Source: an uncultured Clostridia bacterium
GTDB taxonomy: Bacteria > Bacillota > Clostridia > TANB77 > CAG-508
Direction of reading: 5' to 3'
DNA: 64,000 nucleotides
Assembly (NCBI GenBank): GCA_944386685.1
Contig: CALXCA010000003.1
Span: 1 to 64,000 of the forward strand
Position 1 is the stretch's first letter, and each line of letters starts with the position of its first letter. Position numbers and translations under genes: made by a program. This document shows positions 1-23,138 of this stretch, piece by piece. The notes under the pieces are model-generated. The model was not told the DNA's origin. It ran no database searches and saw nothing but the letters and a program-made list of their open reading frames with translations.

Positions 1-1
1 G

Positions 2-232
2 GAGGTTTTTGGTAGTCTTACTGAAGAAGATAAAAAACATCATATTTATTTTGATGAGATTGTTGAGAATATTTTAAGGACTGTACCTAAGCAAAGTCAA
101 AAATATGTTAAGAAACAGTTAGATAAACTTGATGAGAATTTTATGGATTATCTATGCTATTGGAATGAGAAGTATTATAGGAATGGGTTTTGTGATGGGA
201 TACAGTTAATTAATGGATGCTTAATTTTATAG
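2..232 (+). CDS. C-terminal part of a small hypothetical protein (start outside window)
   Basis: The frame from position 2 is open up to a TAG at 230-232 and gives about 76 residues rich in acidic and aromatic residues, ending near the motif YWNEKYYRNGFCDG. The start lies upstream of the window. I do not recognise the family with certainty; it has the look of the short helical proteins often seen in clostridial mobile elements. A second, damaged copy of the same coding sequence lies at 5416-5643, so this gene has been duplicated on either side of the Hachiman/ATPase segment. It is convergent with the helicase gene that ends at 293. A short dyad (ATGGGATTTTTGAA / TTCAAAAATCCCAT) at about 246-286 probably ends both transcripts. 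Confidence 0.6.
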   Translation, partial: EVFGSLTEEDKKHHIYFDEIVENILRTVPKQSQKYVKKQLDKLDENFMDYLCYWNEKYYRNGFCDGIQLINGCLIL

Positions 233-292
233 ATTACATAATAAATGGGATTTTTGAAATAATCTATAAAAATTCAAAAATCCCATTTTATT

Positions 293-2623
293 TTATCTAG
301 TCAATTCTAAAAATTCTCTTATCATTATTTTTTCATAATTATCAAAATTATCTATGTTCTCCAAATTATCTATATTTAATTCAACATCTAAACTTTTTAT
401 TTTTTCAATCAAATCTTTTGAAAAACCATATTCATAATAATTTATATATTCTCTGTCAATTCCCATATTTTCAACGTTTGTCATTATTTCGGCAACATCG
501 AATTCTTCGGTCATTTCTATATTATTTACAGATATATAGTACAAATATACATTTACAAATAATGATAAATAATATGGAATCTTATATTCTATTATATTGG
601 ATATAAATTTAAAAGTTTCTTCATACAGTTTATTATAATTAAAAATTCCATTGTCAAAAAAATATTTTCTTACCCATGATTTTTCATAATATTTTCCGCT
701 TAACATCTTTCGTCGATTAAGTATTCTTGTTCTGTTGTAATTCAATACTTTTTTTATGTTTCCATCTATATGGTATTTATATAATTCTCCCCAAATGAAT
801 GTTCCGTTTTTACTAAATGCATTTATATTAGAATAGTCATTCTTAAATTCAATTCCAATATTTCTTAATATTATAAATATATTAGTAATAGCATTTAATA
901 CATTATCATTTTCTTCTGAAGTTATATTTGTTATATATTCTTTATACGTTCCAATATTTGATTTGTTTTCCATGAAATAATTATATAATTTCAATTTCCA
1001 TTCATTGGGAGCAGATATAGACATCCTTTTAAAATCGTTCGCATTTTCACCAATATTTTTTATTTTCTCTTCAATTTCTCTTTTTCTATTTTTTTCTTCG
1101 TCATTCAAGTATAATTCATCAATCATTTCAATCTCATAATCATTTCTTATTTTATTAGAATTATTATCTTCATAATTAGGATTACTAAGACTAACTCCTT
1201 CATCTTTTATTTTTTCTACTCTATGATATATATCATCAGATATAAATATTACCTTTCCTACATATTTTTTTCCAAATCTTCCTGCTCTTCCTGATATATT
1301 TAGTAAAGCCATATCATTTAACGTTATATTTCTGGCTGTACAACCACTAGTTAAAATTATGTTCTCTGCTGTACAATTCACTCCCTCAACAAAAGCTGTA
1401 GTAACAAATAAACAATTAATTATTCCACTATCATATAATTTTATAATTTCTTTTTTTACATATCTAGGCATTGAAGATATATATATTCCTATTCCTCTTT
1501 TCAACGCTGAAATTATGTACCAGTCTTCTCCATCATCTAAATTGTAGGTTTCTTCTAGATGTTTTATAAATATCTCATATCTGCTTTTTTCTTCCACTTC
1601 TAGATTTAAAAAACTTAAATCTTTATATTGTATTAATTGAAAGATATCCAATCCTTTTGATATATCACTTATATACACAATATTTTTATTTGCTGTCATC
1701 TTTTCCAATATTAAACTTACTTTTTGTGGAATAGTTTTATAATTTTTAATTAACGGTTTGTCACATTCAAAATAACTTGAATATGCAATTGCTGTTGATA
1801 GATTTTCATATTCATGATAAACATATTTAATGTTTCTATTTATTTCTATTATATTATATTTACTCATATATTCTTTCATTGAATCTTCTTTTTCATATGT
1901 ATATGGTGATAAAGCTACAACTTTTATATTAGTATTACTTATAAGTTCTAAAACTTTTCTAAACTTATAAGATCTATTATCAACAACTGAACCATCTATC
2001 TGTCTACCATCATTTTCAATTTTATATACCTCATCCATAACTATAAAATCCACATTATATAACCCACTATATTCATAATAATTTAGAAATTTTTCAGGGG
2101 TTAATACTCTTATTGTCTTTCCAGTTTTTTTCAATATATTTAAAGTAATATTATATTTTTCAAAGAAATCAATTTCTTTATTAATTTTTAATAATTTAAT
2201 ATATAATTCTTCTATTAAGGATTTTGTTGGTAATATAAATATTATGTTATTTAAATTAGAAACATTGTTAACTAAATATTCTAAAATAAGAGTTGTTTTA
2301 CCAAATGAAGTTGGAGCTGAAATTAATACTTTTTCATTCTCTGATATTGCTTTAATTAGTGATAATTGTCCATTATTTAAATGTCTGATTAATTTCCCAT
2401 CATAAGAATGTAATTTAATGTCAAATGAATCATATAAAAACATATTATCATAATTATGTATTTCTTCTATATATCCATATAATTGAAATGCATCTATCAA
2501 AATTGAAATAATATCTTTAAACTCTTCATTTTTTATATATTTACAAATTATCTCTATAGCTTTTTTTCTATTATCATTTATTATTATTTCATTTGCCAAG
2601 TTTAACAAGTTTAACCTGTCCAT
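293..2623 (-). CDS. hamB: HamB, Hachiman defence helicase
   Basis: Superfamily 2 DExD/H helicase of 776 residues. Visible motifs are the Walker A sequence APTSFGKT (about residues 105-112), motif II as MDEVYK (about 195-200), and motif VI with SGRAGRFG (about 445-452) in front of a long C-terminal region without a recognised domain. The start codon lies four bases after the stop of the HamA gene and its ribosome binding site is inside the end of hamA, so the two are translationally coupled. In the described Hachiman system a DUF1837 nuclease (HamA) and a helicase of this size (HamB) form a complex that senses and degrades aberrant DNA. The pairing with a good HamA candidate is the main reason for this call; alone it would only be called a DEAD-type helicase. 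Confidence 0.8.
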   Translation of the reverse strand: MDRLNLLNLANEIIINDNRKKAIEIICKYIKNEEFKDIISILIDAFQLYGYIEEIHNYDNMFLYDSFDIKLHSYDGKLIRHLNNGQLSLIKAISENEKVLISAPTSFGKTTLILEYLVNNVSNLNNIIFILPTKSLIEELYIKLLKINKEIDFFEKYNITLNILKKTGKTIRVLTPEKFLNYYEYSGLYNVDFIVMDEVYKIENDGRQIDGSVVDNRSYKFRKVLELISNTNIKVVALSPYTYEKEDSMKEYMSKYNIIEINRNIKYVYHEYENLSTAIAYSSYFECDKPLIKNYKTIPQKVSLILEKMTANKNIVYISDISKGLDIFQLIQYKDLSFLNLEVEEKSRYEIFIKHLEETYNLDDGEDWYIISALKRGIGIYISSMPRYVKKEIIKLYDSGIINCLFVTTAFVEGVNCTAENIILTSGCTARNITLNDMALLNISGRAGRFGKKYVGKVIFISDDIYHRVEKIKDEGVSLSNPNYEDNNSNKIRNDYEIEMIDELYLNDEEKNRKREIEEKIKNIGENANDFKRMSISAPNEWKLKLYNYFMENKSNIGTYKEYITNITSEENDNVLNAITNIFIILRNIGIEFKNDYSNINAFSKNGTFIWGELYKYHIDGNIKKVLNYNRTRILNRRKMLSGKYYEKSWVRKYFFDNGIFNYNKLYEETFKFISNIIEYKIPYYLSLFVNVYLYYISVNNIEMTEEFDVAEIMTNVENMGIDREYINYYEYGFSKDLIEKIKSLDVELNIDNLENIDNFDNYEKIMIREFLELTR

Positions 2624-2627
2624 ATTT

Positions 2628-3536
2628 CTATTCCTCCTCCATCTTGTTTTTCAAATCCATTGATGTGTTAAAAGTAGGAATAAAAACAATTTCTATACTA
2701 TAATTGTTTACTTCAGTTTGCTTGACCTGTTTTTCAAATTCTTTTAATATTTCATTTATTGAATCTTCAAAGTTTTCTATTTTTCTATTATTTTCATATT
2801 GAAAAATCGCAAAATATATAAATCTTATAGAATATCCCAATTCATTTATGGCATCTACAAATTTCTTGTCCTCTAATATAATTTTTTTGTTAATTTCAGT
2901 TATTTTAAATGTAACATTTTCCTTTCTTCTACTATCTAAACCTTGCTGTCTATTAAGTACAAAATCCATATAATTATTAATATATTTTGAATTGAGATGA
3001 TTATCTTCTCCTGATATATCTCCAATTAAACTATTTTTAGCACTATTTAAATTACCAACAAATTTTGCTTCTGATAATATTATCTCTAGTATATCTTTCT
3101 TATCCTCACAACATACTAAATCTATACCTTTGGCTTCATTTCTATTATTAAATTCTTTTTTTGAAACATATGCTAATAATATTTCTTCATTTAATACATT
3201 CTTCAAATAATAATCATTAAATAATTCTCCAAAAATTCCATTAACACCGGTCTTTCGATCTGGAGTTATTGTCTTATATATTTTTTTAAATTCTTTTTGT
3301 AATTGTTCTGATATGTTTTTGGATAAGTCATATAGATTAATAATATCATCATTTCTTACATACATAGTCATATATTCTTGAAATACTTTTTTAAAATTTT
3401 CTAATTCTTGTTGTTTATTAAAATCATATAAATATACTTTTACATTCATTAATTTTGTTAATGATGTTTCATTAACAAATATCAATGGTGTACATACTTC
3501 TTTATAATATTTTTTTAATATATCTATATTTCCCAT
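2628..3536 (-). CDS. hamA: HamA, Hachiman DUF1837 nuclease
   Basis: The 302-residue protein has the layout of DUF1837 (HamA): an N-terminal region of about 95 residues, then a PD-(D/E)XK-like core with GELFNDYY (E104), KGIDLV (D139) and ILSEAKF (E156, K158). The E-x-K pair is the catalytic signature expected of an active HamA nuclease, and all residues appear intact. Start: ATG at 3536 with GGGGG seven bases upstream. It is the first gene of a two-gene operon with hamB. Upstream are a TGTCGAAA box (3578-3594) and the terminator of the neighbouring ATPase gene, so the pair is an independent transcription unit. Confidence 0.82.
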   Translation of the reverse strand: MGNIDILKKYYKEVCTPLIFVNETSLTKLMNVKVYLYDFNKQQELENFKKVFQEYMTMYVRNDDIINLYDLSKNISEQLQKEFKKIYKTITPDRKTGVNGIFGELFNDYYLKNVLNEEILLAYVSKKEFNNRNEAKGIDLVCCEDKKDILEIILSEAKFVGNLNSAKNSLIGDISGEDNHLNSKYINNYMDFVLNRQQGLDSRRKENVTFKITEINKKIILEDKKFVDAINELGYSIRFIYFAIFQYENNRKIENFEDSINEILKEFEKQVKQTEVNNYSIEIVFIPTFNTSMDLKNKMEEE

Positions 3537-3577: not shown

Positions 3578-3594
3578 TTTGTCGAAACTTGTCA
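3578..3594. promoter_or_regulatory. TGTCGAAA box upstream of hamA
   Basis: The sequence TTTGTCGAAACTTGTCA sits about 45-60 bases upstream of the hamA start. Almost the same sequence, reverse-complemented, occurs at 22975-22990, and related boxes are at 8253 and 17109-17150. The core TGTCGAA resembles a Spo0A box, but no regulator is proven. On the minus strand the same bases supply a TCGACA that could serve as a -35 element. Confidence 0.5.
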
Positions 3595-3607
3595 TTTATT
3601 ATCAAAA

Positions 3608-3650
3608 AAGCAAAATAATTCAGTAATATATAATCACTATTATTTTGCTT
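3608..3650 (-). terminator. Terminator of the DUF4143 ATPase gene
   Basis: Inverted repeat AAGCAAAATAAT / ATTATTTTGCTT with a run of T after it on the minus strand, placed 18 bases beyond the stop of the gene at 3669-4898. The same hairpin arms recur at 8282-8323. Confidence 0.75.
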
Positions 3651-3668
3651 TTCTTCCGTTTATTTAAA

Positions 3669-4898
3669 TTAATCTTTCTTTTCTAGTAACCAATCTAACA
3701 CATTTATCTTTTTTATTCCATCAAAATCAGCATCTAGGTCATCATCTAATGTTAAAATATATTTTGGATAATTATCATTTATTTTCTTTAATGGTGTTAG
3801 TTCTCTATCTAAAATTTTATGTTCTTCTTCTCCTTCTGCTCTAGTTGTCAATGCCACTTGATAATAAATTATATTTTCAGGTTTTTTAGCAACAAAGTCA
3901 ACTTCTAATTCGTCATACTTTCCTATATATACCTCATACCCTCGTCTTAATAATTCTAGATATACAACATTTTCTAATATATGTCCCATATCTCTACCAG
4001 AACCTTGACCTAACATATAATATCTTAGTCCGATATCTACTGCATAATATTTTTCTTGAGTTTTCAAATATTCTTTTCCTTTTATGTCATATCTGCTTGC
4101 CTTAAATATTAAATAACTATCTATAAGTGCATCTACATAATTCGCAATTGTATTATAAGATGAATTCTTTTCTACACCTTCAATATTATCACTTATGCTT
4201 TTCATGCTCGTTCTATTTCCTATATTATCATATAGATATTTTGTAACTCTTTCTAAAACATTTTTATCTGTTATTCCTTTTCTTTGCATTACATCTTTAA
4301 ACAGAACAGTATTATATATACCATCTAAAAACATATTGATATTTTCTGGATTAATTTTAAATAATTCTACTGATTGTGGAAAAGAACTATATCTTAAATA
4401 ATCTCTAAATTTTCTCGATATATCTGTTTTATCTTCAAAAGCTGAAACATATTCCTTGAAAGATAGTGGCAACATCTTTATTTCTATATATCTTCCAGTA
4501 AGTAAGGTTGCTAATTCTGAAGATAATAAATAAGCATTTGAACCAGTTATATACAAATCAACATCTTTATTTATAAATAAGCTATCTACCGTTTTTTCAA
4601 ATTCATCTACATTTTGAATTTCGTCTAAAAATACATAAGTCTTTTTTCCTTTAACTAATTTTGCTTTTATATATTCATATAATTTTTTCCTATCTTGTAA
4701 TTCTTCATAATCTGCATTTTCAAAATTTATAGATATTATTTGATTATCTTCTACTCCACTTTCTCGTAAATAGTCTTGGTATATTTCTAATAATGTAGAT
4801 TTTCCACATCTTCTAATTCCCGTTATGACTTTTATTATTTGTTGATCTTTGAAATTTTTTAATACAGATAAGTAATTATCTCTATTTATTCTTTCCAT
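3669..4898 (-). CDS. AAA+ ATPase with DUF4143 (AAA_14 family)
   Basis: The 409-residue protein has Walker A as TGIRRCGKST (about residues 26-35), Walker B as FLDEIQ (about 92-97), a sensor-like TGSNA, and a C-terminal domain of the DUF4143 nuclease-like type with E-D-F-V (ELEVDFVAKK, about residue 334). Such proteins are common single-gene cargo in bacterial genomes and mobile elements; the physiological role is unknown. The start has a clear AGGAGG. It stands alone with its own terminator, and no antitoxin-like partner overlaps it. Confidence 0.85.
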   Translation of the reverse strand: MERINRDNYLSVLKNFKDQQIIKVITGIRRCGKSTLLEIYQDYLRESGVEDNQIISINFENADYEELQDRKKLYEYIKAKLVKGKKTYVFLDEIQNVDEFEKTVDSLFINKDVDLYITGSNAYLLSSELATLLTGRYIEIKMLPLSFKEYVSAFEDKTDISRKFRDYLRYSSFPQSVELFKINPENINMFLDGIYNTVLFKDVMQRKGITDKNVLERVTKYLYDNIGNRTSMKSISDNIEGVEKNSSYNTIANYVDALIDSYLIFKASRYDIKGKEYLKTQEKYYAVDIGLRYYMLGQGSGRDMGHILENVVYLELLRRGYEVYIGKYDELEVDFVAKKPENIIYYQVALTTRAEGEEEHKILDRELTPLKKINDNYPKYILTLDDDLDADFDGIKKINVLDWLLEKKD

Positions 4899-5072
4899 CG
4901 AATCTCCTCCTAACTATAATAATTATACTATTTTTTTATAGTGTAGTCAAGTTTTTTCAAAATTATGAAAAAACTTTTAGTTTTATCGTATTTTTTTCAA
5001 ATTATTATTGAGTGTTAAAAAAATTTAAATATAATCATTAATCTTTTACGTTTAAATCTATGTATCACATAA

Positions 5073-5378
5073 TTATTTAGGAATTTCTTCTTTATTTACT
5101 AAATTTTCTTCATTTACTATATAAGTAACTTTTTCAATACAACCTTCAATATAAGAAATATCATTAGCTGTATACTTAATTTCAACTTCTTGTAAATACC
5201 AATTTTGTAACACATCTTCATAATATACATTCAAAAACATTTTGTAGTCTTTACCTTTTAACAAACTAAATAATCTATATATTTCTATATTTTCTCCTTT
5301 TTCAATTAGTACTTGTGTATCCCTTCCTATCGCTCTATCTTTATTAATAAAGCATTCAGATTGTATATCTACAATCAT
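5073..5378 (-). CDS. Hypothetical protein, 101 residues
   Basis: An open frame of 101 codons from ATG 5378 with mixed charged and hydrophobic residues and no signal peptide, membrane segment or motif I recognise. There is no strong ribosome binding site before the ATG, and the gene begins just beside the degenerate duplicate at 5416-5643. It may be the remnant of a longer gene that lost its 5' end when that duplicate arrived. It is in an otherwise empty gap of about 500 bases after the ATPase gene, whose promoter region is AT-only. Confidence 0.4.
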   Translation of the reverse strand: MIVDIQSECFINKDRAIGRDTQVLIEKGENIEIYRLFSLLKGKDYKMFLNVYYEDVLQNWYLQEVEIKYTANDISYIEGCIEKVTYIVNEENLVNKEEIPK

Positions 5379-5415
5379 TCGTTTAACATTATTTAATCCT
5401 ATATTCTTAATGTTT

Positions 5416-5643
5416 ATAAAAATATCATATTTATTTTGATGAGATTGTTGAGACTATTTTGAAGAATGCACCTAAGCAAAGTCAAAAAATGTTAAGAAAC
5501 AATTAAATAAACTTGATGAGAATTTTATTGATTATCTGTGCTATTGGAATGAGAAGTATTATAGAAATGGTTTTGTTGATGGTTCTCAACTAGTGATGGG
5601 ATGTTTTAATGAATTGTTATTTTACATCTGTGCTATAAAATAA
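5416..5643 (+). pseudogene. Frameshifted copy of the window-start gene
   Basis: This stretch matches positions 39-225 closely at the DNA level (for example both contain the run encoding IYFDEIVE and the run encoding YWNEKYYRNGF). One base is missing after the codons for KQSQK, near 5490, so the reading frame breaks and hits a stop. Restoring one base gives a frame that runs to a TAA at 5641-5643. The copy lacks the 5' part of the gene, so it is dead. It marks one end of a segment (233-5415) that carries Hachiman and the DUF4143 ATPase. Confidence 0.75.
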
Positions 5644-5667
5644 TAAAAATATAGCACAGATGTAAAA
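5620..5667. repeat. Perfect 17-bp inverted repeat
   Basis: Arms TTTTACATCTGTGCTAT and ATAGCACAGATGTAAAA with a 14-base loop. It is longer and more perfect than the usual terminators in this window, and no clean T-run follows on either strand. It overlaps the end of the pseudogene frame. Confidence 0.7.
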
Positions 5668-5669
5668 AA

Positions 5670-5699
5670 TGTGCCACAAAATTATAAAAAAGTGGCACA
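5670..5699 (-). terminator. Terminator hairpin, minus strand
   Basis: Arms TGTGCCAC and GTGGCACA followed on the minus strand by ATTTTTTAC. Together with a second weaker hairpin at 5755-5790 (AAAATGGCAAA / TTTTGCCATTTT), which lies directly after the 99-residue gene, it closes the PHP-ATPase operon. Confidence 0.6.
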
Positions 5700-5801
5700 A
5701 TTGGATTTTTAAAAGTTTTTTCAAATTTCTAAAAAATCTTTTTTGATATAATCTAAAATGGCAAATAATAATTTGTTATTTTGCCATTTTGAGGTACTCT
5801 T

Positions 5802-6101
5802 TTATTTATATATTTCCTTCCATTCTTCAGAATTTACTAGTTGCTCTATCTCATCATTTAATTCAGCAATATATGTTGTTGCAACCTCTTTATATAATTC
5901 TACATCATAATTTTCATCAATTTTTAGTTCAAAACTAAAAATATTTTTTGTTAACTCTTCTAAAATTGTTTTAAAAACTTCTTTTATATCATTATTATCT
6001 GATTTAATAAAGTTAATTACTAATTTGTTTTTAAATTGAAATTCTAATATATCATCCCTTTTTTCTTTTTTTAATTCTACTATTATTTTATCTTGATTCA
6101 T
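5802..6101 (-). CDS. Small acidic partner of the PHP-ATPase
   Basis: A 99-residue, acidic, mostly helical protein. Its ATG overlaps the stop codon of the PHP-ATPase gene by 14 bases, so the two are translationally coupled and the product is probably made in ratio to the ATPase. I see no known motif and no membrane segment. The gene is followed by two terminator-like hairpins. A regulatory or immunity-type partner of the large protein is plausible but inferred only from coupling. Confidence 0.6.
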   Translation of the reverse strand: MNQDKIIVELKKEKRDDILEFQFKNKLVINFIKSDNNDIKEVFKTILEELTKNIFSFELKIDENYDVELYKEVATTYIAELNDEIEQLVNSEEWKEIYK

Positions 6102-8208
6102 ACACTATTCTCCTATCATCGAAAGCTTCTTTTCCACCCTCTAATACTTTAATACTTTCATCTTTCCAATTTTTTACATCGGTACTATCATCTATATTTA
6201 TCAATTGATTTATAAATGGATTTCCAATATATGTTTTATACTTTCCATTTTCATATGATTTTAATATTGATATAAAAGGCAAAGTTCTAACTGCTATATT
6301 TGCATTATGTGTTGCCACAATTACTGTTTTTCCTAATTTACCTAATTCTACAATTCTGGGTACAATTACTGAATTTATAAAAGTATTTCCCAAGCTTCTT
6401 TCAGGTTCATCTAACAAATACACATCTGCCTCTTCATATATTTTCTTATGTAGTATTAGCATTATCTTTTCTCCATCTGATGGCTTATAATATTCTCCTG
6501 ATTTATTTTCATATTGCTTTTTTATTCCAATAAAATCTTTTGCTTTTAGATTAAGTTTCTCAATTTCTTCTTTTATATTGTCTATTTTTTCATTAAGTTG
6601 TATTTTATAATTTTTATCTAAACCTAAAATTAAATTAGATATTTTATTTAAATCACTTATATTTTGTCCATATTTAAATTCTTTAATTTTACTTTTAAAT
6701 ATCCTATGCTCAACAGATAAATAAACTTCCTTACCTTCATCTAAATTTCCTATTTTTTCTCGAGTTTTTTCTGTTTTGCTATCCATACATTTCCTAAAAT
6801 TTTTAATGCATTTCTTCAAATCTAAATATTTTTGCGAAAATTCTAAAAATCCTGTACTATCAGGCAAAGACTTAGAAGTTGTACATAGATCAGCTTTATT
6901 TTTAATTATTTTTATTGTGATATTGCTTAATTTATTTGAATAATATTCAATATGCTCTAACTTTAATATCGAAAAACAATTTTTTCTTATTTTATTATTA
7001 ATTTCTTTATATAATTTTGCATCTTCTGTTTCTAAATATTTTTCTAAATTATATTCATCTATTTGATTCATAATATTTGTTACTATTCGATATTCTTCTT
7101 TTAATTTGGTTAGTTTAACATTATTTTTAAAAGTAGTTTTTAAAGATGTAATTTTTAATTTTTCTTTATTTTTATTGTACTTTTTTGTCCTAGAATATTC
7201 AATGTAATCATTTAATGATGTTGGTAATATTTCTTCCCATCTTTTTATAAATTCTAGCATTTCTTTAATAGGAGTTATATCTATATTGGTATTTGTTCTT
7301 TCTGTATCATTAAATTTTAATTTTTGATCCATTACTTCATCAACATCTGAAGCTCTATATAAAGAATATTTACTTCCATCTTTTAAATATTTATTCTTTA
7401 ACCCCTCCAAGACAGCTGTTTTTCCTGTTCCTTTTGCTCCAAAAATTATATTTATATCATTATATATTGGAATTTTTATTTTTTCTTTTTTGGAATCATT
7501 GATTTTTATTTGAATTTCTTTTATTTTTTTTTCTTTCTTATTTAATAATGTATTTATTGTGGATTTATCCTTTTTGGCTAATAAAACTAATTTTTCAAAA
7601 CTATCTATTTCTAATTTTAATTCAGGTAATTCACAATTCGGATATTTGTTCCAGTCTTTAATATCACTTCCTAGCATTGCTTGTATTCCATTATCTAGCA
7701 TAATGCTCAAACTCTTAAAGTTGCTCGGCTCTGAAAAAACTCTATATTTTTCATTAATTCCATTCTTTAGTATTTCTATCATTTCCCCAGTAAAGCATTG
7801 TGCCTTTCTATAATCATGAGCAATAAAAATCGCATCTTTATCCGAAAAATATTTTATGAATTTATTTAAGTCAATTTTTACTTCATCAGGTTTTTTACCA
7901 TTTATCAATATTTTCAACAAACTCTCAAATTCACTTGTTCTATCCGAATTATATATAACAATTAAATGTCCAATACATTCTTTGTAATTTATATCTAATT
8001 CCACTCCAGGCCAAACTTGTGCAATACCATCAACACATTTCTTTAGTTCATTATATTGTTGAATATCAAACAAATTATGATTTGTTATTCCAATAATTTT
8101 AACATTACTATTAATTATCTTTTCTTTAAATAATTCTGAAGTAACATTTCTAGTTTCAGCATCTCCTATTTTTGCTTTTTTAGTATGACAATGCAAATCT
8201 ATTTTCAT
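6088..8208 (-). CDS. PHP-domain/ABC-type ATPase fusion (TrlF-like)
   Basis: The 706-residue protein joins an N-terminal PHP phosphoesterase to an SMC/ABC-type ATPase. The PHP part shows LHCHT (H6, H8), GVELDI (E70), H81, AHDYR (H131) and GSDIKDW (D182), so the metal site looks complete. The ATPase has Walker A as GAKGTGKT (257-264), a long charged helical middle, a signature-like SDGEK (about 577), Walker B as LLDEPERS (about 596) and an H-loop ATHN (about 632). PHP domains act as metal-dependent phosphoesterases or nucleases; the fusion resembles proteins named TrlF-like AAA ATPases, whose role is not established. Position among defence genes suggests an anti-phage nuclease gated by ATP. Start ATG 8208 follows GGGGGAA. 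The upstream box at 8253 matches that of hamA. Confidence 0.75.
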   Translation of the reverse strand: MKIDLHCHTKKAKIGDAETRNVTSELFKEKIINSNVKIIGITNHNLFDIQQYNELKKCVDGIAQVWPGVELDINYKECIGHLIVIYNSDRTSEFESLLKILINGKKPDEVKIDLNKFIKYFSDKDAIFIAHDYRKAQCFTGEMIEILKNGINEKYRVFSEPSNFKSLSIMLDNGIQAMLGSDIKDWNKYPNCELPELKLEIDSFEKLVLLAKKDKSTINTLLNKKEKKIKEIQIKINDSKKEKIKIPIYNDINIIFGAKGTGKTAVLEGLKNKYLKDGSKYSLYRASDVDEVMDQKLKFNDTERTNTNIDITPIKEMLEFIKRWEEILPTSLNDYIEYSRTKKYNKNKEKLKITSLKTTFKNNVKLTKLKEEYRIVTNIMNQIDEYNLEKYLETEDAKLYKEINNKIRKNCFSILKLEHIEYYSNKLSNITIKIIKNKADLCTTSKSLPDSTGFLEFSQKYLDLKKCIKNFRKCMDSKTEKTREKIGNLDEGKEVYLSVEHRIFKSKIKEFKYGQNISDLNKISNLILGLDKNYKIQLNEKIDNIKEEIEKLNLKAKDFIGIKKQYENKSGEYYKPSDGEKIMLILHKKIYEEADVYLLDEPERSLGNTFINSVIVPRIVELGKLGKTVIVATHNANIAVRTLPFISILKSYENGKYKTYIGNPFINQLINIDDSTDVKNWKDESIKVLEGGKEAFDDRRIVYESR

Positions 8209-8252
8209 TTTTATTCCCCCTTTTCTATTTTACAGCCTTCAATGATAATTTT

Positions 8253-8268
8253 TTGTCGAAATTTGCAA
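8253..8268. promoter_or_regulatory. TGTCGAAA box upstream of the PHP-ATPase operon
   Basis: TTGTCGAAATTTGCAA, about 45-60 bases upstream of the start at 8208. This box and the adjoining terminator align base for base with the hamA junction (3578-3620), with few differences. Confidence 0.5.
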
Positions 8269-8280
8269 ATTAATATCAAA

Positions 8281-8326
8281 AAAGCAAAATAATAACGTAA
8301 TTAATTTACAAATTATTTTGCTTTTT
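8281..8326 (-). terminator. Terminator of the DpnII-type operon
   Basis: Arms AAGCAAAATAAT (8282-8293) and ATTATTTTGCTT (8312-8323) with T-run on the minus strand, just after the stop of the restriction enzyme gene. The arms are identical to those at 3608-3650 while the loops differ. Confidence 0.75.
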
Positions 8327-8333
8327 CTTATGT

Positions 8334-9212
8334 TTATTTAAAAACTTCTTGCATAATGCCACTTTCCATGTCTGCTATGTTATAAATATTATCCATTATA
8401 TCGAATGTTTCTTTTAAGTTATTTCTAGCTGAAATCCATCCCATTCCATCTGTGAACCATACAAATTCAAATCCAACAACATTTTTAGCCTCTTCAGCAA
8501 TCATTTTATAACTTCTAGCAGTTTCATTAAGTTTTGAACCACCTGAAGCATAAAAATTAGTTTCTATACCATAAATACAATTGTCTGTTTTAATAACAAA
8601 ATCAAATCTCTTTGTTGATTGATTTTTATTACTAATAAACGACATATCTAATTTCCATTTTTCTTCTATTTGTTGTAAATACATTTCTTTAAAATATGTT
8701 TCATTTTTCTTAAATCCTGCTTTTTGAATAAATCTTTCTACAACATCTTCCATTAAATGTCCACCTCGATTTTTCCTACCATTCGAATCAAGGCCTGTTT
8801 CAACACCTGTTGCATAATCAACCAAATTGTTTATAATATGATTTTGTAATAAGTCAAACAATCCTGTTTCTCTCATAAAATATTTATATTTTTCATAATA
8901 CACATGACTATTTGGAGGATACTTAGCAAAATCAAACTTGAATAAATATCCACCGTTTTCATCTTGGCAATAAATTTCATTGGCTCTAACTGCTAATAAA
9001 AGAGGTATACACTTTAAAATTTCAGGGTATTTTCTTAGTAATTTTTCAAAATCTTCTTCTATATTTTTTGAACCAATAAGAGAATTCAAAATATTAAGTT
9101 CAACCTTAATTAAATCCACATTTCTATGAACTTTTTCAAAATCTATGTAATATTTATAATTAGCTATACTATGTGTAAAAGTTAATAGCCATTCATCAAA
9201 ATTTCTTTTCAT
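8334..9212 (-). CDS. dpnB: DpnII-family type II restriction endonuclease (GATC)
   Basis: The 292-residue protein follows Streptococcus R.DpnII along its length as I remember it: NFDEWL at the start, LNSLIGSKNIEEDF, IPLLLAVR, FDLLQNHIINNLVDY, TGVETGLDSNGRKNR, KRFDFVI and GSKLNETARSYKMIAEE. The catalytic PD-(D/E)XK core is in KRFDFVIKTDN..GIETNFY. The enzyme cuts unmethylated GATC. The two matching methyltransferases lie upstream in the same operon. Start ATG 9212 follows AGGAGG, 11 bases after the Mrr-type gene ends. Length is normal for the family. Confidence 0.93.
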   Translation of the reverse strand: MKRNFDEWLLTFTHSIANYKYYIDFEKVHRNVDLIKVELNILNSLIGSKNIEEDFEKLLRKYPEILKCIPLLLAVRANEIYCQDENGGYLFKFDFAKYPPNSHVYYEKYKYFMRETGLFDLLQNHIINNLVDYATGVETGLDSNGRKNRGGHLMEDVVERFIQKAGFKKNETYFKEMYLQQIEEKWKLDMSFISNKNQSTKRFDFVIKTDNCIYGIETNFYASGGSKLNETARSYKMIAEEAKNVVGFEFVWFTDGMGWISARNNLKETFDIMDNIYNIADMESGIMQEVFK

Positions 9213-9223
9213 CTTACATCCTC

Positions 9224-10033
9224 CTACTCGAATTCAATTATAATTTTATTGTTTTTTTCGTCCATTTTCCAAAATGATTTCTTTTTATTATCTCCAGTAT
9301 AATCGTAATATCCAATATTTCTGTATATTTCTGTCACTCCACCAAAATATCTTCTTGTTGAATTTATATTTAATTCCTTTATCTTGTTATTAATTTCTAC
9401 TTTATATTTTGTATATTCTTTTATTTTTTCAAATATTTCATTAGGAATCGGTAAAATACGCGCTCTTATATCATTTCTACTAATAAGTCTTATTATAGCT
9501 TCCATTTTAAATTCATCTTTAAGCTTTATAGAATCATTATTTGCATTTATTATTTGTCTAACTTTATCAATAGAAACCGTTGGATTCCATTCAAAAATAT
9601 AATCTTTTTCTGGATGTTCCATATAAAATTTTAATATAGCTTCACCATTTATTAAAATTATCTTTCTAGATATATCATTCTCAGCTTCTTCTATTCCACT
9701 TTTTGAAAAATCACTAGTTGTTATAAAGATTCTTTTTTCGTACGATGCTGTTCCTTTAAATTCGCGAATTTCTTTTACTGGTACGGTATTTTTATATCTT
9801 TTTGCTTGAATGATATATTTTTCCGGATCTATTTCTAAGTCACTTATAGAATTTTTGTATGCAATTAAATCTATTCCTTTATCTCCACTTCTTTTGGTAA
9901 CTTTTATATCTGTAAATCCTAAATCTTCTAAAAATTTCTTTAAAAAATACTCAAAATCATATCCTGTTTTAAAACAATTATAAAAATCATCAATCATTTT
10001 TCTTGTTATTTCTAAATTCATGTATTTGTTCAT
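9224..10033 (-). CDS. Mrr-type restriction endonuclease inside the DpnII operon
   Basis: 269 residues with an Mrr_cat-like PD-(D/E)XK domain at about residues 20-135: FEYFLKKFLEDLGF, then KRSGDKGIDLIAY (D for metal binding) and YIIQAKRYKN (Q-A-K in place of E-x-K, as usual in Mrr), followed by FITTSDFS. The C-terminal half has no family I know. It overlaps the end of the DpnA-like gene by 44 bases and leads directly into the endonuclease gene, so it belongs to the same operon. GGAGG sits only one base from the first ATG; the ATG at 10021 is an alternative start. Mrr proteins often attack methylated DNA, which would be risky beside two GATC methylases, so its specificity is probably different. 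Confidence 0.8.
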   Translation of the reverse strand: MNKYMNLEITRKMIDDFYNCFKTGYDFEYFLKKFLEDLGFTDIKVTKRSGDKGIDLIAYKNSISDLEIDPEKYIIQAKRYKNTVPVKEIREFKGTASYEKRIFITTSDFSKSGIEEAENDISRKIILINGEAILKFYMEHPEKDYIFEWNPTVSIDKVRQIINANNDSIKLKDEFKMEAIIRLISRNDIRARILPIPNEIFEKIKEYTKYKVEINNKIKELNINSTRRYFGGVTEIYRNIGYYDYTGDNKKKSFWKMDEKNNKIIIEFE

Positions 10034-10784
10034 ACCTCCTTATAGATAAATCCAAATATTCCTGAGAATTATCTATTCCAATAAAGTTTCTGTTTAATTT
10101 ATTTGCTGCTATACCTGTCGTACTACTTCCACAAAAAGGATCTAGTATAAAATCATTTTCTTCTGTAGATGCTAATATAATTCTCTCTAGTATCTCTAAA
10201 GGTTTTTGTGTTGGATGTTTTCCTTGTTTCTTTTCAGATGGTTTTGTTAAAGAAGTGGTCCAAACATCTTTCATCTGTTTGTTATTATTTAATCTTTTCA
10301 TTAGGTCATAATTAAATTTATATTTTATTTTTGGCAAATCTTTTCTTGCCCATAATATTGTTTCTGTAGAATGTGTAAATGTTTTACATGCTAAATTTGG
10401 TGGAGGATTAGTCTTTTGCCATGTTATATTATTAATTATTTTAAATCCTTCTTCTTCCAATGCCATGCCTATTGAATAAATATTATGCAATGTTCCACTA
10501 ATCCATATAGTTCCCTCATCTTTTAAAACTCTATAGCATTCACGAATCCACTTTTTATTGAATTCATGTTTGTCTTTTACACTCAATGCCTTATCCCAAT
10601 TTCCTTTATTTACACTAACCATTTTTCCTGCATTACAAGTTATTCCATTGTTTGACAGAAAATATGGCGGATCAGCAAATATCATATCAATACATTTTTC
10701 TTCAAAATTATTTAATGTATCAAAAGTATCATTATTGATTAATTTAAAGCTATTTTCTTCATAATAGAATTTTCCTGGATACAT
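9990..10784 (-). CDS. dpnA: DpnA-type adenine-N6 methyltransferase (GATC)
   Basis: 264 residues with DPPYFLS (catalytic DPPY, about residues 35-38) first and the SAM-binding FCGSSTTGIAA near the C-terminus (about residues 217-227), i.e. the beta order of motifs found in DpnA/MboI-type methylases. Conserved TWQKTNPPPN and KHPTQKP are present. In the DpnII system DpnA methylates GATC also on single-stranded DNA, which helps the system establish after transfer. The start overlaps the end of the first methylase by 46 bases. AAGGAG precedes the ATG. Confidence 0.92.
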   Translation of the reverse strand: MYPGKFYYEENSFKLINNDTFDTLNNFEEKCIDMIFADPPYFLSNNGITCNAGKMVSVNKGNWDKALSVKDKHEFNKKWIRECYRVLKDEGTIWISGTLHNIYSIGMALEEEGFKIINNITWQKTNPPPNLACKTFTHSTETILWARKDLPKIKYKFNYDLMKRLNNNKQMKDVWTTSLTKPSEKKQGKHPTQKPLEILERIILASTEENDFILDPFCGSSTTGIAANKLNRNFIGIDNSQEYLDLSIRRYEQIHEFRNNKKND

Positions 10785-11686
10785 TTCTCCATCTCCTTGT
10801 AATTAGTAATAAGTAATTCTGAAATCTCTCCCCTTCTTTTTGCGTTTGCATTTATCATTCTTTTAGCTGAAATTTCATTTATATTGAATCCCTTATATAT
10901 TTCTTCAAAGAAATTATCATCTTGGTTTGTATTTTTAGGGTTTGAATTTGATAACATCAGTTTTGCATTTTTTCCATCTAATTTTTTAAAATAATTTGCT
11001 AATTCTTTTTGATTTTCATCGTTAAAATCTTCTTTTGTATATGATGTAAATCCTGATGTTATTGATAATGGTCTATATGGAGGATCAAAATAAACAAAAG
11101 TATTACTATCTATATATCTCTCACTTTTTTTATAATCTCCATGCTGAAACACTACATTTCTAATCAAATATGATAAATTTCTTAAATTTTCAGAATCGCA
11201 TATTGTTGGATTTTTATATCTACCAAACGGTACATTAAATTCCCCATTTTTGTTAACTCTATATAATCCATTAAAGCATGTTCTGTTTAAAAATATAAAT
11301 TCAGATGCTCTTTTTACGCTTAATTCATTTTCTTTAATTTTATACAAATTGTATTCTCTTCTAATATTATAATAATACTTTTGTCGCTTATCATTTTCTA
11401 ATTCTAAAAATTCTTTTTCTTTTCTATTTAATTCATTTATTAAACCTTCAACATCTACTTTTATAATATTATAACAATTTATTAAATCTAAGTTTATATC
11501 AAACGCATAAGCTTCTTTAACATTATATTTTTGTAATATGTTTATTAAAACAGCTCCTCCACCAACAAATGGTTCCACATATTTATTTATTGTCTCATTT
11601 TCTAATTCAAATGGGTAAAAGCTTTTTAATTGTGGGATCAAACTTCCCTTTCCTCCAGCCCATTTTACAAAAGGTTTTATTTTCAT
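10739..11686 (-). CDS. dpnM: Dam-family GATC adenine methyltransferase (DpnM-type)
   Basis: 315 residues of the D12 class: KPFVKWAGGKGSL at the N-terminus (SAM loop, about residues 4-16), YVEPFVGGGAV, FLNRTCFNGLYRVN, and FDPPYRPL (catalytic DPPY, about residues 198-202). It protects host GATC sites from the partner endonuclease. First gene of the operon dpnM-dpnA-mrr-dpnB; all junctions overlap or nearly so. Ribosome binding site GGGAGAA before ATG 11686. Sequence is complete. Confidence 0.93.
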   Translation of the reverse strand: MKIKPFVKWAGGKGSLIPQLKSFYPFELENETINKYVEPFVGGGAVLINILQKYNVKEAYAFDINLDLINCYNIIKVDVEGLINELNRKEKEFLELENDKRQKYYYNIRREYNLYKIKENELSVKRASEFIFLNRTCFNGLYRVNKNGEFNVPFGRYKNPTICDSENLRNLSYLIRNVVFQHGDYKKSERYIDSNTFVYFDPPYRPLSITSGFTSYTKEDFNDENQKELANYFKKLDGKNAKLMLSNSNPKNTNQDDNFFEEIYKGFNINEISAKRMINANAKRRGEISELLITNYKEMEKCIQENSIMKKIALN

Positions 11687-17076: not shown

Positions 17077-17108
17077 AATTCTATTTCCTCTCAGTAATAT
17101 ATTAACAC

Positions 17109-17150
17109 TTTCGACAATATTTGTCAAATATTTTGAAAATATTGTCGAAA
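17109..17150 (-). promoter_or_regulatory. Inverted TGTCGAAA operator of the GHKL operon
   Basis: Two perfect 14-bp arms, TTTCGACAATATTT and AAATATTGTCGAAA, separated by 14 bases, 33 bases upstream of the first gene. Each arm contains the TGTCGAA core that also precedes hamA, the PHP-ATPase and the 310-residue gene. A strong operator candidate. Confidence 0.6.
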
Positions 17151-18216: not shown

Positions 18217-19032
18217 TTATACTAACTCTTTTTTCATACTTTTTAGTGTCAATCCATAACACATTTGATACAATTTTGAGATAATTGCATCTACTAATTG
18301 CTCGTCTTGACTTTGACTAAATCTTTCTATTAATCCTTGTTTATCAAATCTTGTTGTAATAATTATTGGTAATCTATTTTCGTTTCTATTTTCTATTATT
18401 GTGTATAATTTTTCTAATGCCCAATTGCTTATTTTTTCTGTTCCTAGATCATCAATTATTATCATATCTACATTTGAATATAGCTCAATTAATTCGTTTT
18501 CTGACTTCGTATTATCCTTAAAAGTTTCCTTTATCATATCTAATAAAGTCGTCAATCTTCCCATTAATACTATCTTGTCATTTTCAATTAATTTATTAGC
18601 AATTGATGCTGCTAAATGTGTTTTTCCAACTCCTGACTCGTCCATTATTATCAGTCCATTGGTATTTGCACTTGTAATATTTTTATTTACATAGTCTTTA
18701 GCAATTGCTATAGCTAATTCATTTTCAGAATTACTATTAAAATTTTCAAAGTTCAGATTTTGAAATTTCATGCCAATATAATTTTGTTTATATATCTTGT
18801 TTATAACCTCTCTAAAATGTTTTCTTTTTGCAATTTCATAGTCTCGTTTATCTTTCTCGTTCCAATATTCTTGTGCTTTTTTACAAGTACATCTTTCATA
18901 TTCAATATTATCTGGAGAAAAATTAGCATATAAATAATCAAGACCTATTGTATTTAATTCTCTTCCACAAAATTCACATTTTTTCATTTTTTTGTGGATA
19001 ACTTCGTTATATTTTATATTCCCTAAAACCAT
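18217..19032 (-). CDS. DnaC-type helicase loader of the mobile element
   Basis: 271 residues. The N-terminus has four cysteines (CEFCGRE and ERCTCKKA, residues 19-54) likely binding zinc. The AAA+ core has Walker A DESGVGKTHLA (about 128-138), Walker B MIIIDDLGTEK (about 188-198) and a sensor IITTRFD (about 227). This is the IstB/DnaC loader layout used by phages and integrative elements to recruit the host replicative helicase. The start overlaps the replisome organiser gene by 26 bases, so the two are co-translated. GAGGAGAGC lies upstream of the ATG. Confidence 0.85.
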   Translation of the reverse strand: MVLGNIKYNEVIHKKMKKCEFCGRELNTIGLDYLYANFSPDNIEYERCTCKKAQEYWNEKDKRDYEIAKRKHFREVINKIYKQNYIGMKFQNLNFENFNSNSENELAIAIAKDYVNKNITSANTNGLIIMDESGVGKTHLAASIANKLIENDKIVLMGRLTTLLDMIKETFKDNTKSENELIELYSNVDMIIIDDLGTEKISNWALEKLYTIIENRNENRLPIIITTRFDKQGLIERFSQSQDEQLVDAIISKLYQMCYGLTLKSMKKELV

Positions 19033-19525
19033 TTTCGCTCTCCTCTCTTATATTTTTTTCTTTTCTCATTCTTAATTCTTTTGTATTTTTTTCTTGTCCG
19101 TTACTTAACGTTTGAATAACGTTACTTTTTTCTTTTTCACTTTTTAATTTTTCACGATATCTTTTTTGTCTTTCTCTATTTTGCATTTGATATTTTTCAT
19201 AGTTTTCAATACTTTGATACTTGTCCCAATTTTTTATTAGAAATGTTTCCCCTTCTTTTATTAACATTTCTAATTCCAGAAATTTATTTAGAATTTTTTC
19301 TATTTTTTTCTTAGATTTTCCCATAATCTTTGAAAAATTTTCTATTGTCATAGGATTATTACCTCCTATTTCTAACCTTCCTTTGTTATTACATTCAACT
19401 GCTAATGCAATTAACTGTATCCATACTCTAAAATAAGTATCACCATCAGTTAATTTTAAAATCAACTGAATTTTTCTGTTTGAAAATATGTTGGTTTCTG
19501 TTTTAAACCATGGTAATTCATACAT
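19007..19525 (-). CDS. Phage-type replisome organiser (DnaD-like N-terminus)
   Basis: 172 residues beginning WFKTETNIFSNRKIQLI, typical of the winged-helix N-terminal domain of phage replisome organisers, with FSKIMGKSKKKIEKILNKF as the recognition region and a basic tail (QNRERQKRYREKLK). It is expected to bind the element's replication origin and hand over to the DnaC-type loader encoded next. AAGGAGG precedes ATG 19525. Length fits the short organisers of integrative elements. Confidence 0.75.
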   Translation of the reverse strand: MYELPWFKTETNIFSNRKIQLILKLTDGDTYFRVWIQLIALAVECNNKGRLEIGGNNPMTIENFSKIMGKSKKKIEKILNKFLELEMLIKEGETFLIKNWDKYQSIENYEKYQMQNRERQKRYREKLKSEKEKSNVIQTLSNGQEKNTKELRMRKEKNIREESENGFREYKI

Positions 19526-19552
19526 AGCCTCCTTTCCTCACTTTCCTTTTAG

Positions 19553-19753
19553 TTAGTAACTAACTGATTCTTTTTCTTTTCTATTTAGATATTCGTCTAA
19601 TGCTTGAACTCTAAATAGAAATTTTCCACCAACTTTTGAGCATGGTATTTGCTTTCTTCTTACTAATTGATTAATCAACCAATAAGATATTCCTAAATAC
19701 TCTGCTGCTTCTTTCATTGTTAGTGTTGTTCTTTGTACTTTTTGTAATTCCAT
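19553..19753 (-). CDS. xis: Excisionase-like helix-turn-helix protein
   Basis: 66 residues with TMKEAAEYLGISYWLINQLVRRKQIPCSK in the middle (given as parts TMKEAAEYLGISYW and LINQLVRRKQIPC), a MerR/excisionase-type winged helix. Such proteins set the direction of tyrosine recombinases. It starts the minus-strand replication operon and is divergent from the 425-residue gene. GAGGTGA precedes the ATG. The integrase is 3.4 kb away but shares its type of promoter with the divergent gene beside xis. Confidence 0.75.
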   Translation of the reverse strand: MELQKVQRTTLTMKEAAEYLGISYWLINQLVRRKQIPCSKVGGKFLFRVQALDEYLNRKEKESVSY

Positions 19754-19783
19754 AAAATCACCTCATCTTTCTTTTATTTAAAG

Positions 19784-19825
19784 TTGACTTTTGTTAACAA
19801 TTGAATTATACTAATTATAGTTAAC
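19784..19825 (+). promoter_or_regulatory. Promoter P1 with paired GTTAAC sites
   Basis: TTGACT at 19784-19789, a 17-base spacer, TATACT at 19807-19812. GTTAAC occurs in the spacer (19793) and downstream of the -10 (19820), 27 bases apart. The integrase promoter at 23042 has the same layout. Confidence 0.75.
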
Positions 19826-19918
19826 CAAAACAAGAATTTTAGTGAAAGTTTTTTATAAATGATAACAGCTAAAAACCCTTACTGTACGGATTTTTACTGT
19901 TAACACGGAGGAATTAAA

Positions 19919-21196
19919 ATGGCAAAAAACGAATCTTATTCTATAAAATTAAACTTATACAATGGAAAAAATCCTTTTGAATTAAATAAATTTTATTCAA
20001 TTTCATTTGATACCAATAAAATAAATTTATCTACTAAACAAACTGATAAACTTGTAGAACAATTTTATAAAGAAATGAATATAAAAAGAAAAGATGAACT
20101 TATGGATGATCTATTTCTTACTTTAATACATAAACAATTTCCAAATTTTCCAGCTAATACATTATTTGTACAAGATATAGAAAAAATAGATTTAGATTTA
20201 AAATTAAGCTATGATTATAACAAAATTGCATTAGGAGATAATTTAATGGGCTTTTTAAATTTAGATTTTTATAAATTTGAAGATTTCTTTAAATTTTTCT
20301 GTACTTTTATTTTTATGTATTTCATTAAAATATCTAAAAAGCAATTAAATAAAATATTCAAAGGATTTGATGAAAATATTATTTATATAGATTCAAAAAG
20401 ACCTACACATATAGTAGAAAAATCTTTATTAAAAGAATGTGCTAAACAACTCTACGAAAGTGAAAAATATTATTTAATAGAAAAACAAAAATTATTCAGA
20501 AACTTTGTAGATTATATATTTAATAATAACAAAGAAAAAAGATTATCTAAATTAACTAACTCTCAAAGATTTTATATATTTCAAAACATATCAGAAGAAA
20601 TTCAAAATTTTGCAAATAATTATATATGTGATTATACATTAGGATTTTGGTTTAATGATCCTACTTTTAAAAGTAATATTTTAAATAAAATCAAAGAAAC
20701 TCTATCTGATCCATTATCTAATGAAAATTTTTTAATAGAAAATATGTTAAAAAATGATCCAGATGGAAAAAAGATTATAGGACACAAATATAGCTTTGAA
20801 ACTAATAATTTATTTACATATTTCTATATTATCCTTTATCATATTACCTTAAATAATGTTGAATACATAAAAAAGTGTCAAGTATGTGGAAAATATTTCT
20901 TCTCTGATAAAAATAATACATTATATTGTAATGGTAAATACTCTAAAGATATTACTTGTAAAGAATATGGAAAAAAAACTTCTCAAAAAAGGAAGGAAAA
21001 TGAAGAACCTGTATATGGTAAATATAGACAAATATATGCAAAAAAGGCCATGATGGTAAAAAGAAATCCAGACATTGAATATTACAAAACTAACTATGAA
21101 AAGTGGAAAAAAGAAGCTAGACAATTTATTAATGATATTAAATTTGGCAAAAAGACTTATGATGAATTTAATAAATGGTTAGATGAAAATATCTAA
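19919..21196 (+). CDS. DUF6076-like protein with C-terminal zinc motif
   Basis: 425 residues from ATG 19919 (GGAGG nine bases upstream). The last 130 residues hold a likely zinc site, KKCQVCGKYFFSD and LYCNG..ITCKEYG, followed by a basic helical end (AKKAMMVKRNPD). The N-terminal 300 residues are helical with no motif I recognise. The shape recalls the DUF6076 proteins common near integrases in clostridial elements; function unknown. It is driven by the P1 promoter and followed by a terminator, so it is a single-gene unit co-regulated with the integrase. Confidence 0.6.
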   Translation: MAKNESYSIKLNLYNGKNPFELNKFYSISFDTNKINLSTKQTDKLVEQFYKEMNIKRKDELMDDLFLTLIHKQFPNFPANTLFVQDIEKIDLDLKLSYDYNKIALGDNLMGFLNLDFYKFEDFFKFFCTFIFMYFIKISKKQLNKIFKGFDENIIYIDSKRPTHIVEKSLLKECAKQLYESEKYYLIEKQKLFRNFVDYIFNNNKEKRLSKLTNSQRFYIFQNISEEIQNFANNYICDYTLGFWFNDPTFKSNILNKIKETLSDPLSNENFLIENMLKNDPDGKKIIGHKYSFETNNLFTYFYIILYHITLNNVEYIKKCQVCGKYFFSDKNNTLYCNGKYSKDITCKEYGKKTSQKRKENEEPVYGKYRQIYAKKAMMVKRNPDIEYYKTNYEKWKKEARQFINDIKFGKKTYDEFNKWLDENI

Positions 21197-21229
21197 AAAG
21201 GTTACGCACAAATGCATAACCTTTTATTT
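21195..21229 (+). terminator. Terminator of the DUF6076-like gene
   Basis: Arms AAAAGGTTACGCA and TGCATAACCTTTT with a four-base loop and one mismatch, followed by ATTT, starting at the stop codon. Confidence 0.75.
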
Positions 21230-21922
21230 ATGTTTTATATTTAACCTTTTGTCTATTCCAAATTTAATTAATATTTTACCTAAAGGTATCATTACTATAT
21301 ATTTCAATAATAATTTTATTAATTTAAATGGTAAAATAATAAAATATATTATTATTTTTATGCAAGGCATTTCTACAATTTTATATAGTGAAAGCTCAAA
21401 TTTTACTAAAAATAAATTTATTTTATACTTCCACCATTTGTAATTTATATTTGGATCAAAATATATTCCATTTGTAAAAAAAGATATTGCTTTAAACTTT
21501 AACGGTAATTCGAAATTGTATAAACCAATCTCTTTTCTTATTTGGTTTAACATATCAGCAACTATGTATAATATTGTTTGTGAATCATAATATTGACATT
21601 TTTTCACTATTTCTGACGAATATTCTCTAAAAGTGCAATATTTCTTATACATTTTTTTTGATCCATAAATAAAAATAGTTGAACCAAAATCAAAGAACTT
21701 TGATTTCATTTCTTCGTCTAAAAGCAATTCCCCACCTTTTATATATGTTTCTTTAAGTAAATTTATAAATTCCATATATTTTTCTTTTTTTAATTCATGC
21801 TTTTTAAATTTTAATTCGTTATATTTTCCTAATAAATAAATTAATACTGTTACAAATATAGATATAAGTGCAATTTGTTCTGAAGTCAATCCTTTAAATA
21901 TATTTATTATTGTATCTATCAA
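21224..21922 (-). CDS. Membrane protein of unknown function
   Basis: 232 residues from a TTG at 21922 (GAAGGTG upstream). One membrane segment at about residues 17-35 (ALISIFVTVLIYLLG) is followed by a lysine-rich stretch, a cytoplasmic domain of about 130 residues, and a hydrophobic C-terminus with two possible segments (about 180-225). No known domain. It shares the minus-strand unit with the 310-residue gene upstream (50-base gap). Membrane-anchored accessory proteins often accompany defence sensors, but no evidence beyond location supports that here. Confidence 0.6.
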   Translation of the reverse strand: MIDTIINIFKGLTSEQIALISIFVTVLIYLLGKYNELKFKKHELKKEKYMEFINLLKETYIKGGELLLDEEMKSKFFDFGSTIFIYGSKKMYKKYCTFREYSSEIVKKCQYYDSQTILYIVADMLNQIRKEIGLYNFELPLKFKAISFFTNGIYFDPNINYKWWKYKINLFLVKFELSLYKIVEMPCIKIIIYFIILPFKLIKLLLKYIVMIPLGKILIKFGIDKRLNIKHK

Positions 21923-21971
21923 TTATTTTCACCTTCTCTTATTTGATTATTTTTAATTATTTAAAACATTT

Positions 21972-22904: not shown

Positions 22905-22974
22905 ACATCACATCTCCTTTCTTTCTGTCGCATTATATCATATTTTCTGCAAAAAATCCAGCAAATTCCTGATA

Positions 22975-22990
22975 TGACAAGTTTCGACAA
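22975..22990. promoter_or_regulatory. TGTCGAAA box upstream of the 310-residue gene
   Basis: TGACAAGTTTCGACAA, the reverse complement of the hamA box with no mismatch over these 16 bases. It lies 70-85 bases upstream of the minus-strand start and upstream of a minus-strand TATAAT. Confidence 0.5.
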
Positions 22991-23041
22991 TTTTCTTAAT
23001 ATTATTTTATTCAACTTGTCCAAATTTAATACCAAAACCTC

Positions 23042-23083
23042 TTGCACTTTGTTAACAATTGTATTATAATGATTGCAGTTAAC
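23042..23083 (+). promoter_or_regulatory. Integrase promoter P2 with paired GTTAAC sites
   Basis: TTGCAC at 23042-23047, 17-base spacer, TATAAT at 23065-23070. GTTAAC at 23051 and 23078, again 27 bases apart, as in P1. A common repressor binding both promoters is likely. Confidence 0.75.
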
Positions 23084-23138
23084 AATATGTAAATTTTCTC
23101 CCACCCATAGGTATGCCTGAAAGGAGGTGAAAAAGGTA

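Follow-up and report, generated by a model that had tools for sequence, protein, structure and literature searches.

Spo0A-activated sigma-A promoters of the spoIIG and spoIIE class have a 0A box in place of the -35 element, 21-22 bp from the -10. Defence hotspots of mobile elements, such as the P2/P4 hotspots (PMC9122126) and the defence islands of E. coli (PMC10121019), combine constant flanks with exchangeable defence cargo, and integrative and mobilizable elements carry an integrase, Xis-like and replication genes and a MobA/VirD2 relaxase (PMC5704250). How defence systems carried by mobile elements are regulated after reaching a new host is largely an open question. Here we describe a recurring junction, the seam, found twice in a stretch of 64,000 nucleotides (the window; contig CALXCA010000003.1, positions 1 to 64,000) of an uncultured Clostridia bacterium. 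The seam shares with the spoIIG/spoIIE class the 0A box standing for the -35 and the 21-bp gap to the -10, an arrangement also present at spoIIGA of relatives, and differs from it in having a perfect 0A core, a conserved terminator in front and mobile defence operons as its predicted targets. As in the P2/P4 hotspots and the E. coli islands, constant flanks enclose varying defence genes; unlike there, the seam flank itself would set regulation, and a small convergent gene, the anchor, forms the other constant flank. The surroundings resemble integrative and mobilizable elements in gene content, to which a dedicated defence bay with seam and anchor is added. Integron cassette arrays likewise have a recurring hairpin-bearing joint between units of the same direction, whereas the seam has no fixed crossover, its hairpin behaves as an RNA terminator and each unit has a promoter of its own. 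Finally, in RptR-regulated islands (PMC12255303) one regulator, reportedly a dedicated repressor, acts on the defence genes of an island, and here the part is apparently taken by the sporulation regulator of the host.

We consider it probable that the seam is a regulatory joint, a terminator followed by a Spo0A-class sigma-A promoter, and that it belongs to the defence cargo bay of a family of mobile elements in gut Clostridia. The terminator would end transcription of the upstream defence unit and so insulate the incoming one, the promoter would start the downstream unit, and any cassette placed behind the seam would enter the Spo0A regulon of the host. The roughly 80 bp held in common would also offer a stretch at which recombination can join unrelated units. 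The parts of the two copies are as follows.

3603..3653, minus strand: seam 1 hairpin, predicted intrinsic terminator for the DUF4143 gene upstream (arms AAAAGCAAAATAAT/ATTATTTTGCTTTTTT form an inverted repeat; homologues in 37 loci; G.U changes preserve the stem)
3580..3594, minus strand: seam 1 0A box TTCGACA (3580-3586), preceded at 10 bp by the half-box GACAAG (direct reading; family conservation; 0A core TGTCGAA per PMC3485338)
3553..3563, minus strand: seam 1 putative -10 region, TATATT 21 bp from the box, alternatively an extended -10 TGATATATA at 19 bp (direct reading; spacing profile)
8279..8326, minus strand: seam 2 hairpin, predicted intrinsic terminator of the DpnII gene (same basis as seam 1)
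8254..8260, minus strand: seam 2 0A box TTCGACA (direct reading; family conservation)
8227..8232, minus strand: seam 2 putative -10 hexamer TAAAAT, 21 bp from the box (direct reading)

Both copies lie on the minus strand where an earlier note on this DNA had placed them (3578-3650 and 8253-8326), and its description holds that they differ at few positions from the 3' arm of the hairpin through TTTCGACAA, with unlike loops and flanking genes. Read in gene direction, each copy runs from the upstream stop codon through the hairpin AAAGCAAAATAAT...ATTATTTTGCTTT, a T run, GATA(A/T)TAA and a short stretch to TTTCGACAA, and the downstream gene begins 40 to 50 bases past the latter (HamA at 3536, the PHP-type gene at 8208). 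The hairpin arms common to both copies are ATTATTTTGCTT and the box after GATA(A/T)TAA is TTTCGACA. That a defence operon starts behind the seam, as the same note had it, is true of both copies; what it left out is that both upstream genes are parts of defence units as well. As these genes are a DUF4143/AAA_14 gene (PDC-S01) and the DpnII restriction gene (8334-9212, adjoining seam 2), each copy joins two defence units. A longer junction pattern has only two matches in the 1.93-Mb genome, both in the window. The 45 bases downstream, used as a pattern, matched only the two window copies, so that conservation stops at the box and the -10 spacing and does not extend to the spacer sequence. Within the window TGTCGAAA is found six times against 0.81 expected, a number reached by none of 100 shuffles. 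Genome-wide the bare 8-mer shows no enrichment (39 matches as compared to 90 for the reversed word), and the box is therefore meaningful only within the promoter geometry. An Rfam scan and a tRNA scan of the window returned nothing.

In the promoter half a perfect 0A box, TTCGACA, is preceded at 10 bp by a half-box and followed at 21 bp by a -10 hexamer. On the opposite strand the box reads TGTCGAA, the 0A core, and it is present in nearly all of the 37 copies known from the family; C. difficile Spo0A binds this core and requires G2, C4 and G5 (PMC3485338). The earlier note had suggested that the seam carries a terminator and a promoter, which stem pairing and -10 spacing bear out, and missed that the box is the 0A box of a Spo0A-type promoter, the more informative half. 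In the fetched loci TTCGACA stands upstream of genes 31 times, a count that includes the seams used to find the loci; for 60 composition-matched control words the mean was 0.47 and the highest value 4. Scoring the -10 by distance gave the strongest peak at 21 bp, often as an extended TGNTATAAT, and a lesser one at 16 bp. In a less biased search of 195 genomes, in which the gap from ACAANNTTCGACA to TATAAT could range from 14 to 28 bp, the distance was exactly 21 bp in 46 of 91 matches and every other distance was seen 1 to 7 times, with spacer sequences that are unrelated between loci. With the distance fixed at 21 bp, 78 of 243 genomes gave about 97 matches, most of these not being seams, against 2 for the reversed control. 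As a positive control, GACA, 21 bp and TAnnAT were found about 50 bases before the start codon of spoIIGA in 12 of 15 relatives. Spo0A_C (PF08769) is encoded in all 30 relatives checked, including the genome of the window, in which a perfect 0A core precedes spo0A itself by roughly 100 bases (a distance estimated from frame length). Since the spoIIGA boxes are weaker, the box of the seam being closer to the 0A consensus, a response would be expected at low levels of phosphorylated Spo0A (Spo0A~P), early in starvation.

The genes behind 30 fetched 21-bp matches include Spo0E-like small proteins just below the Pfam cut-off (L175, L177, L194, L196, L201 and L202), as well as putative Y1-type transposases and a response-regulator-like protein, named by reading their sequences. 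The Spo0E-like genes suggest feedback on Spo0A~P in this Clostridia family. Further boxes occur in the window itself. At 17108-17150 the opposed 0A boxes TTCGACAATATT...AATATTGTCGAA flank a TTGACA-17-TAATAT promoter of a PDC-M33A defence operon, one of the two lying inside the promoter spacer, which resembles a Spo0A-repressed promoter. At 22977-22992, upstream of the tyrosine integrase, TGACAAGTTTCGACAA is identical to seam 1 and has no -10 at 21 bp.

The first half of the seam is, by its predicted geometry, an intrinsic terminator of the upstream unit, having a 13-bp stem and T6, with the upstream stop codon usually 40-60 bases from the 3' arm. The stem is paired in 98.5% of alignment cells, a share that drops to 50 to 66% if the partner is shifted by 1 to 3 columns, and the variation of the stem is nearly all from A.U to G.U, mostly in the 5' arm (at one pair 17 of 36 copies are changed in this way). 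As such changes keep the hairpin in RNA of the sense direction and are mismatched on the opposite strand, they fit a terminator and speak against a recombination site of folded DNA. Two loci, L133 and L135, have the hairpin behind rloB and no promoter half.

Searching 390 genomes of the same family with a 36-base pattern (up to 3 mismatches) detected 37 copies of the seam in 35 genomes and 17 of 39 genera, and none of the reversed pattern. A GTDB genome scan added a view of 23 loci, by title nearly all from uncultured Clostridia or Clostridium metagenome-assembled genomes. The exact seam pattern was absent from the viral contigs searched, and blastn gave no match to the seam among annotated plasmids or phages. 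Up to 20 kb was fetched around each copy and the proteins were clustered, yielding 14 upstream and 24 downstream gene clusters in 30 combinations among the 37 copies. Upstream stand RloA/RloB (AbiL-like; RloB PF13707), DUF4143, DpnII, N6 methyltransferases and a GmrSD protein or helicase. Named systems downstream are Hachiman, Gabija, an AbiA-type reverse transcriptase, a Thoeris TIR, Ppl, a HerA-type protein and a capP protein, joined by PDC-S06, PDC-S53, PDC-M48B, Old/AriA-like ATPases and PHP ATPases, some of these being PADLOC candidate systems. Downstream proteins were scanned in 18 loci, and for 15 of these PADLOC named a defence family. Three large downstream cargo genes, L088:6718-9297, L094:8308-10026 and L101:3638-5404, have no PADLOC match and are candidate novel defence systems. 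With 3 of the 18 downstream units unmatched, the seam could be used to look for cassettes of still unknown defence types. Two simpler attributions were rejected. The seam is no part of the DUF4143 gene, as a second DUF4143 gene in L099 lacks it, nor wholly part of rloB, which in L133 and L135 has the hairpin half only and in L137 and L140 neither half.

In 31 of 37 loci the downstream operon is followed by the anchor, a convergent gene about 97 codons long that matches no Pfam family. Constant flanks around differing defence genes, as in defence hotspots, are seen in related genomes: between L096 and L107, from two genera, rloB is 95.3%, the seam 96.4% and the anchor 89.5% identical, and the cargo is different. 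A second recurring terminator, AAAGGCGAG...CTCGCCTTT, stands between unrelated cargo and the anchor in L092, L102, L103, L110, L111, L116, L117 and L119, and the right end of cassettes may therefore have shared seams of its own. Assembly contigs often stop at or near the seam, rloB or the anchor (window position 1; L092, L094, L103, L144, L148), as expected if the bay varies within populations. The genes around the window seams and those of the mobile element are listed below.

1..232, plus strand: convergent anchor gene at the right boundary, truncated where the contig starts (same cluster after the cargo in the 31 loci)
293..2623, minus strand: HamB helicase of Hachiman (PADLOC HamB, 4e-59)
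2628..3536, minus strand: HamA of Hachiman, predicted first gene driven from seam 1 (Pfam HamA, 1.4e-8; PADLOC HamA)
3669..4898, minus strand: DUF4143/AAA_14 ATPase (PDC-S01), the unit upstream of seam 1 (PADLOC, 5e-154)
5413..5627, plus strand: second anchor gene, reduced to a frameshifted remnant, which marks where the first cassette ends on the right (aligned locally with window 33-239)
5802-6101: 99-aa gene after the PHP-type/ATPase gene
6088..8208, minus strand: PHP-type/ATPase gene (PDC-M49A), predicted to be driven from seam 2 (PADLOC, 1e-28)
8334..11686, minus strand: DpnII restriction-modification unit upstream of seam 2, with restriction endonuclease, Mrr-like gene and two methyltransferases (PADLOC, Pfam)
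18217..24329: mobile-element core genes, DnaC-like 18217-19032 (minus), replisome organiser 19007-19525 (minus) and tyrosine integrase 23127-24329 (plus) (Pfam; same order left of the seam in L095, L104, L111 and L113)

The window thus runs from the integrase (23127) over the replisome organiser (19007) and the DnaC-like gene (18217) to the defence units, a seam, the PHP unit and the anchor remnant, and from there to DUF4143, the other seam, Hachiman and the anchor at the contig start. Left of the cargo the loci have genes for Xis-like, replisome-organiser and DnaC-like proteins and a MobA/VirD2 relaxase, with an opposed tyrosine integrase in several of them. Judged by this gene content, the loci probably form the defence bay of an integrative mobilizable element; its integrase, Xis-like and relaxase genes are found across the loci, and in the window itself no relaxase was identified.

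Several observations weigh against Spo0A acting at the seam as proposed. The spoIIGA promoter of the same genome (L162) lacks the GACA-21 form, and the best extended -10 of seam 1 lies at 19 bp, the hexamer at 21 bp, TATATT, being weaker. The half-box in front of the box is weak, the 10-bp period of tandem boxes being represented by ACAAGTTTCGACA with a half-box only, and the spacing at spoIIGA is 13 bp. Binding of Spo0A and the direction of regulation, activation rather than repression, are themselves predictions from the sequence. In addition, the genome has seven Spo0A_C (PF08769) hits (C2, C5, C8, C16, C22), several of them full-length frames beyond the true Spo0A, and a paralogue could therefore read the box. 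That the reader is such a Spo0A-like paralogue or another response regulator, possibly encoded by the element, we regard as unlikely: one gene behind the same promoter (L198) does encode a response-regulator-like receiver protein, and yet the core agrees with the 0A consensus at every position, spoIIGA, a classical Spo0A target, shares the geometry, and the cargo loci examined showed no Spo0A_C gene. It is similarly unlikely that TTCGACA is a mere -35 of an ordinary sigma-A promoter, the copies being alike through common descent of a convenient terminator-promoter piece. The copy in L120, which reads TTTTGACA, and the second -10-like hexamer often found at 16 bp would agree with this, whereas the C at position 2 of the hexamer is disfavoured for a -35 and nevertheless kept in nearly all copies, the distance found in about half of the unbiased matches is far from 17 bp, and the spacing is kept though the spacers are unrelated.

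The way cassettes are exchanged raises a further alternative, namely that the seam is a site-specific recombination site, attC-like as in integrons or dif-like, used by a recombinase for the insertion and excision of defence cassettes. A hairpin with a conserved tail between co-oriented units, two tandem copies in the window, and a mobile-element setting with a tyrosine integrase that has another copy of TGACAAGTTTCGACAA upstream would all suit such a site. The breakpoints, however, vary, lying right after the hairpin in L133 and L135 and at the stop codon in L137, while L107 and L121 part only at the ribosome-binding site, which makes homologous or illegitimate recombination likelier than a fixed site-specific core. 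Moreover, each half of the seam is found without the other, the 21-bp spacing to the -10 plays no part in recombination, and in place of the constant crossover and single-stranded folded DNA of attC we find these shifting junctions and G.U changes on the sense strand. No integron integrase was noticed in the loci examined, where no dedicated IntI model search was made. Site-specific recombination at the seam is accordingly very unlikely in our estimate. The earlier note had proposed a seam at which defence cassettes are exchanged by homologous recombination and suggested looking for it beside differing genes in related genomes; the same seam does adjoin varied defence genes in the 35 genomes, and homologous recombination is compatible with the data rather than demonstrated by them. 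Apart from any exchange, the hairpin sequence could also be maintained because one particular terminator is selected for. Both copies lie in one 5-kb stretch and are the sole two of the genome, as a local duplication without wider meaning would have it, an explanation left with practically no probability and ruled out by copies in 34 other genomes and 17 genera beside other genes.

Each of the components, Spo0A promoters, defence hotspots and mobilizable elements, is of a known kind. In the literature searched we found no direct precedent for Spo0A control of defence systems, nor a report of a defence bay with a Spo0A-type promoter as its constant flank. Based on the joint of terminator and Spo0A-class promoter we further propose, at about even confidence, that it works as a portable plug-in socket, which would place an exchanged cassette under the starvation and sporulation decision of the host and have it switched on while Spo0A~P is low, ahead of sporulation or in its place. 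If so, a shared socket linked to a host regulator that is conserved would account for how unrelated systems can be swapped without rewiring. Phage defence would then be linked to sporulation in gut Clostridia, and the starvation state of the host may control the immunity that mobile elements bring.

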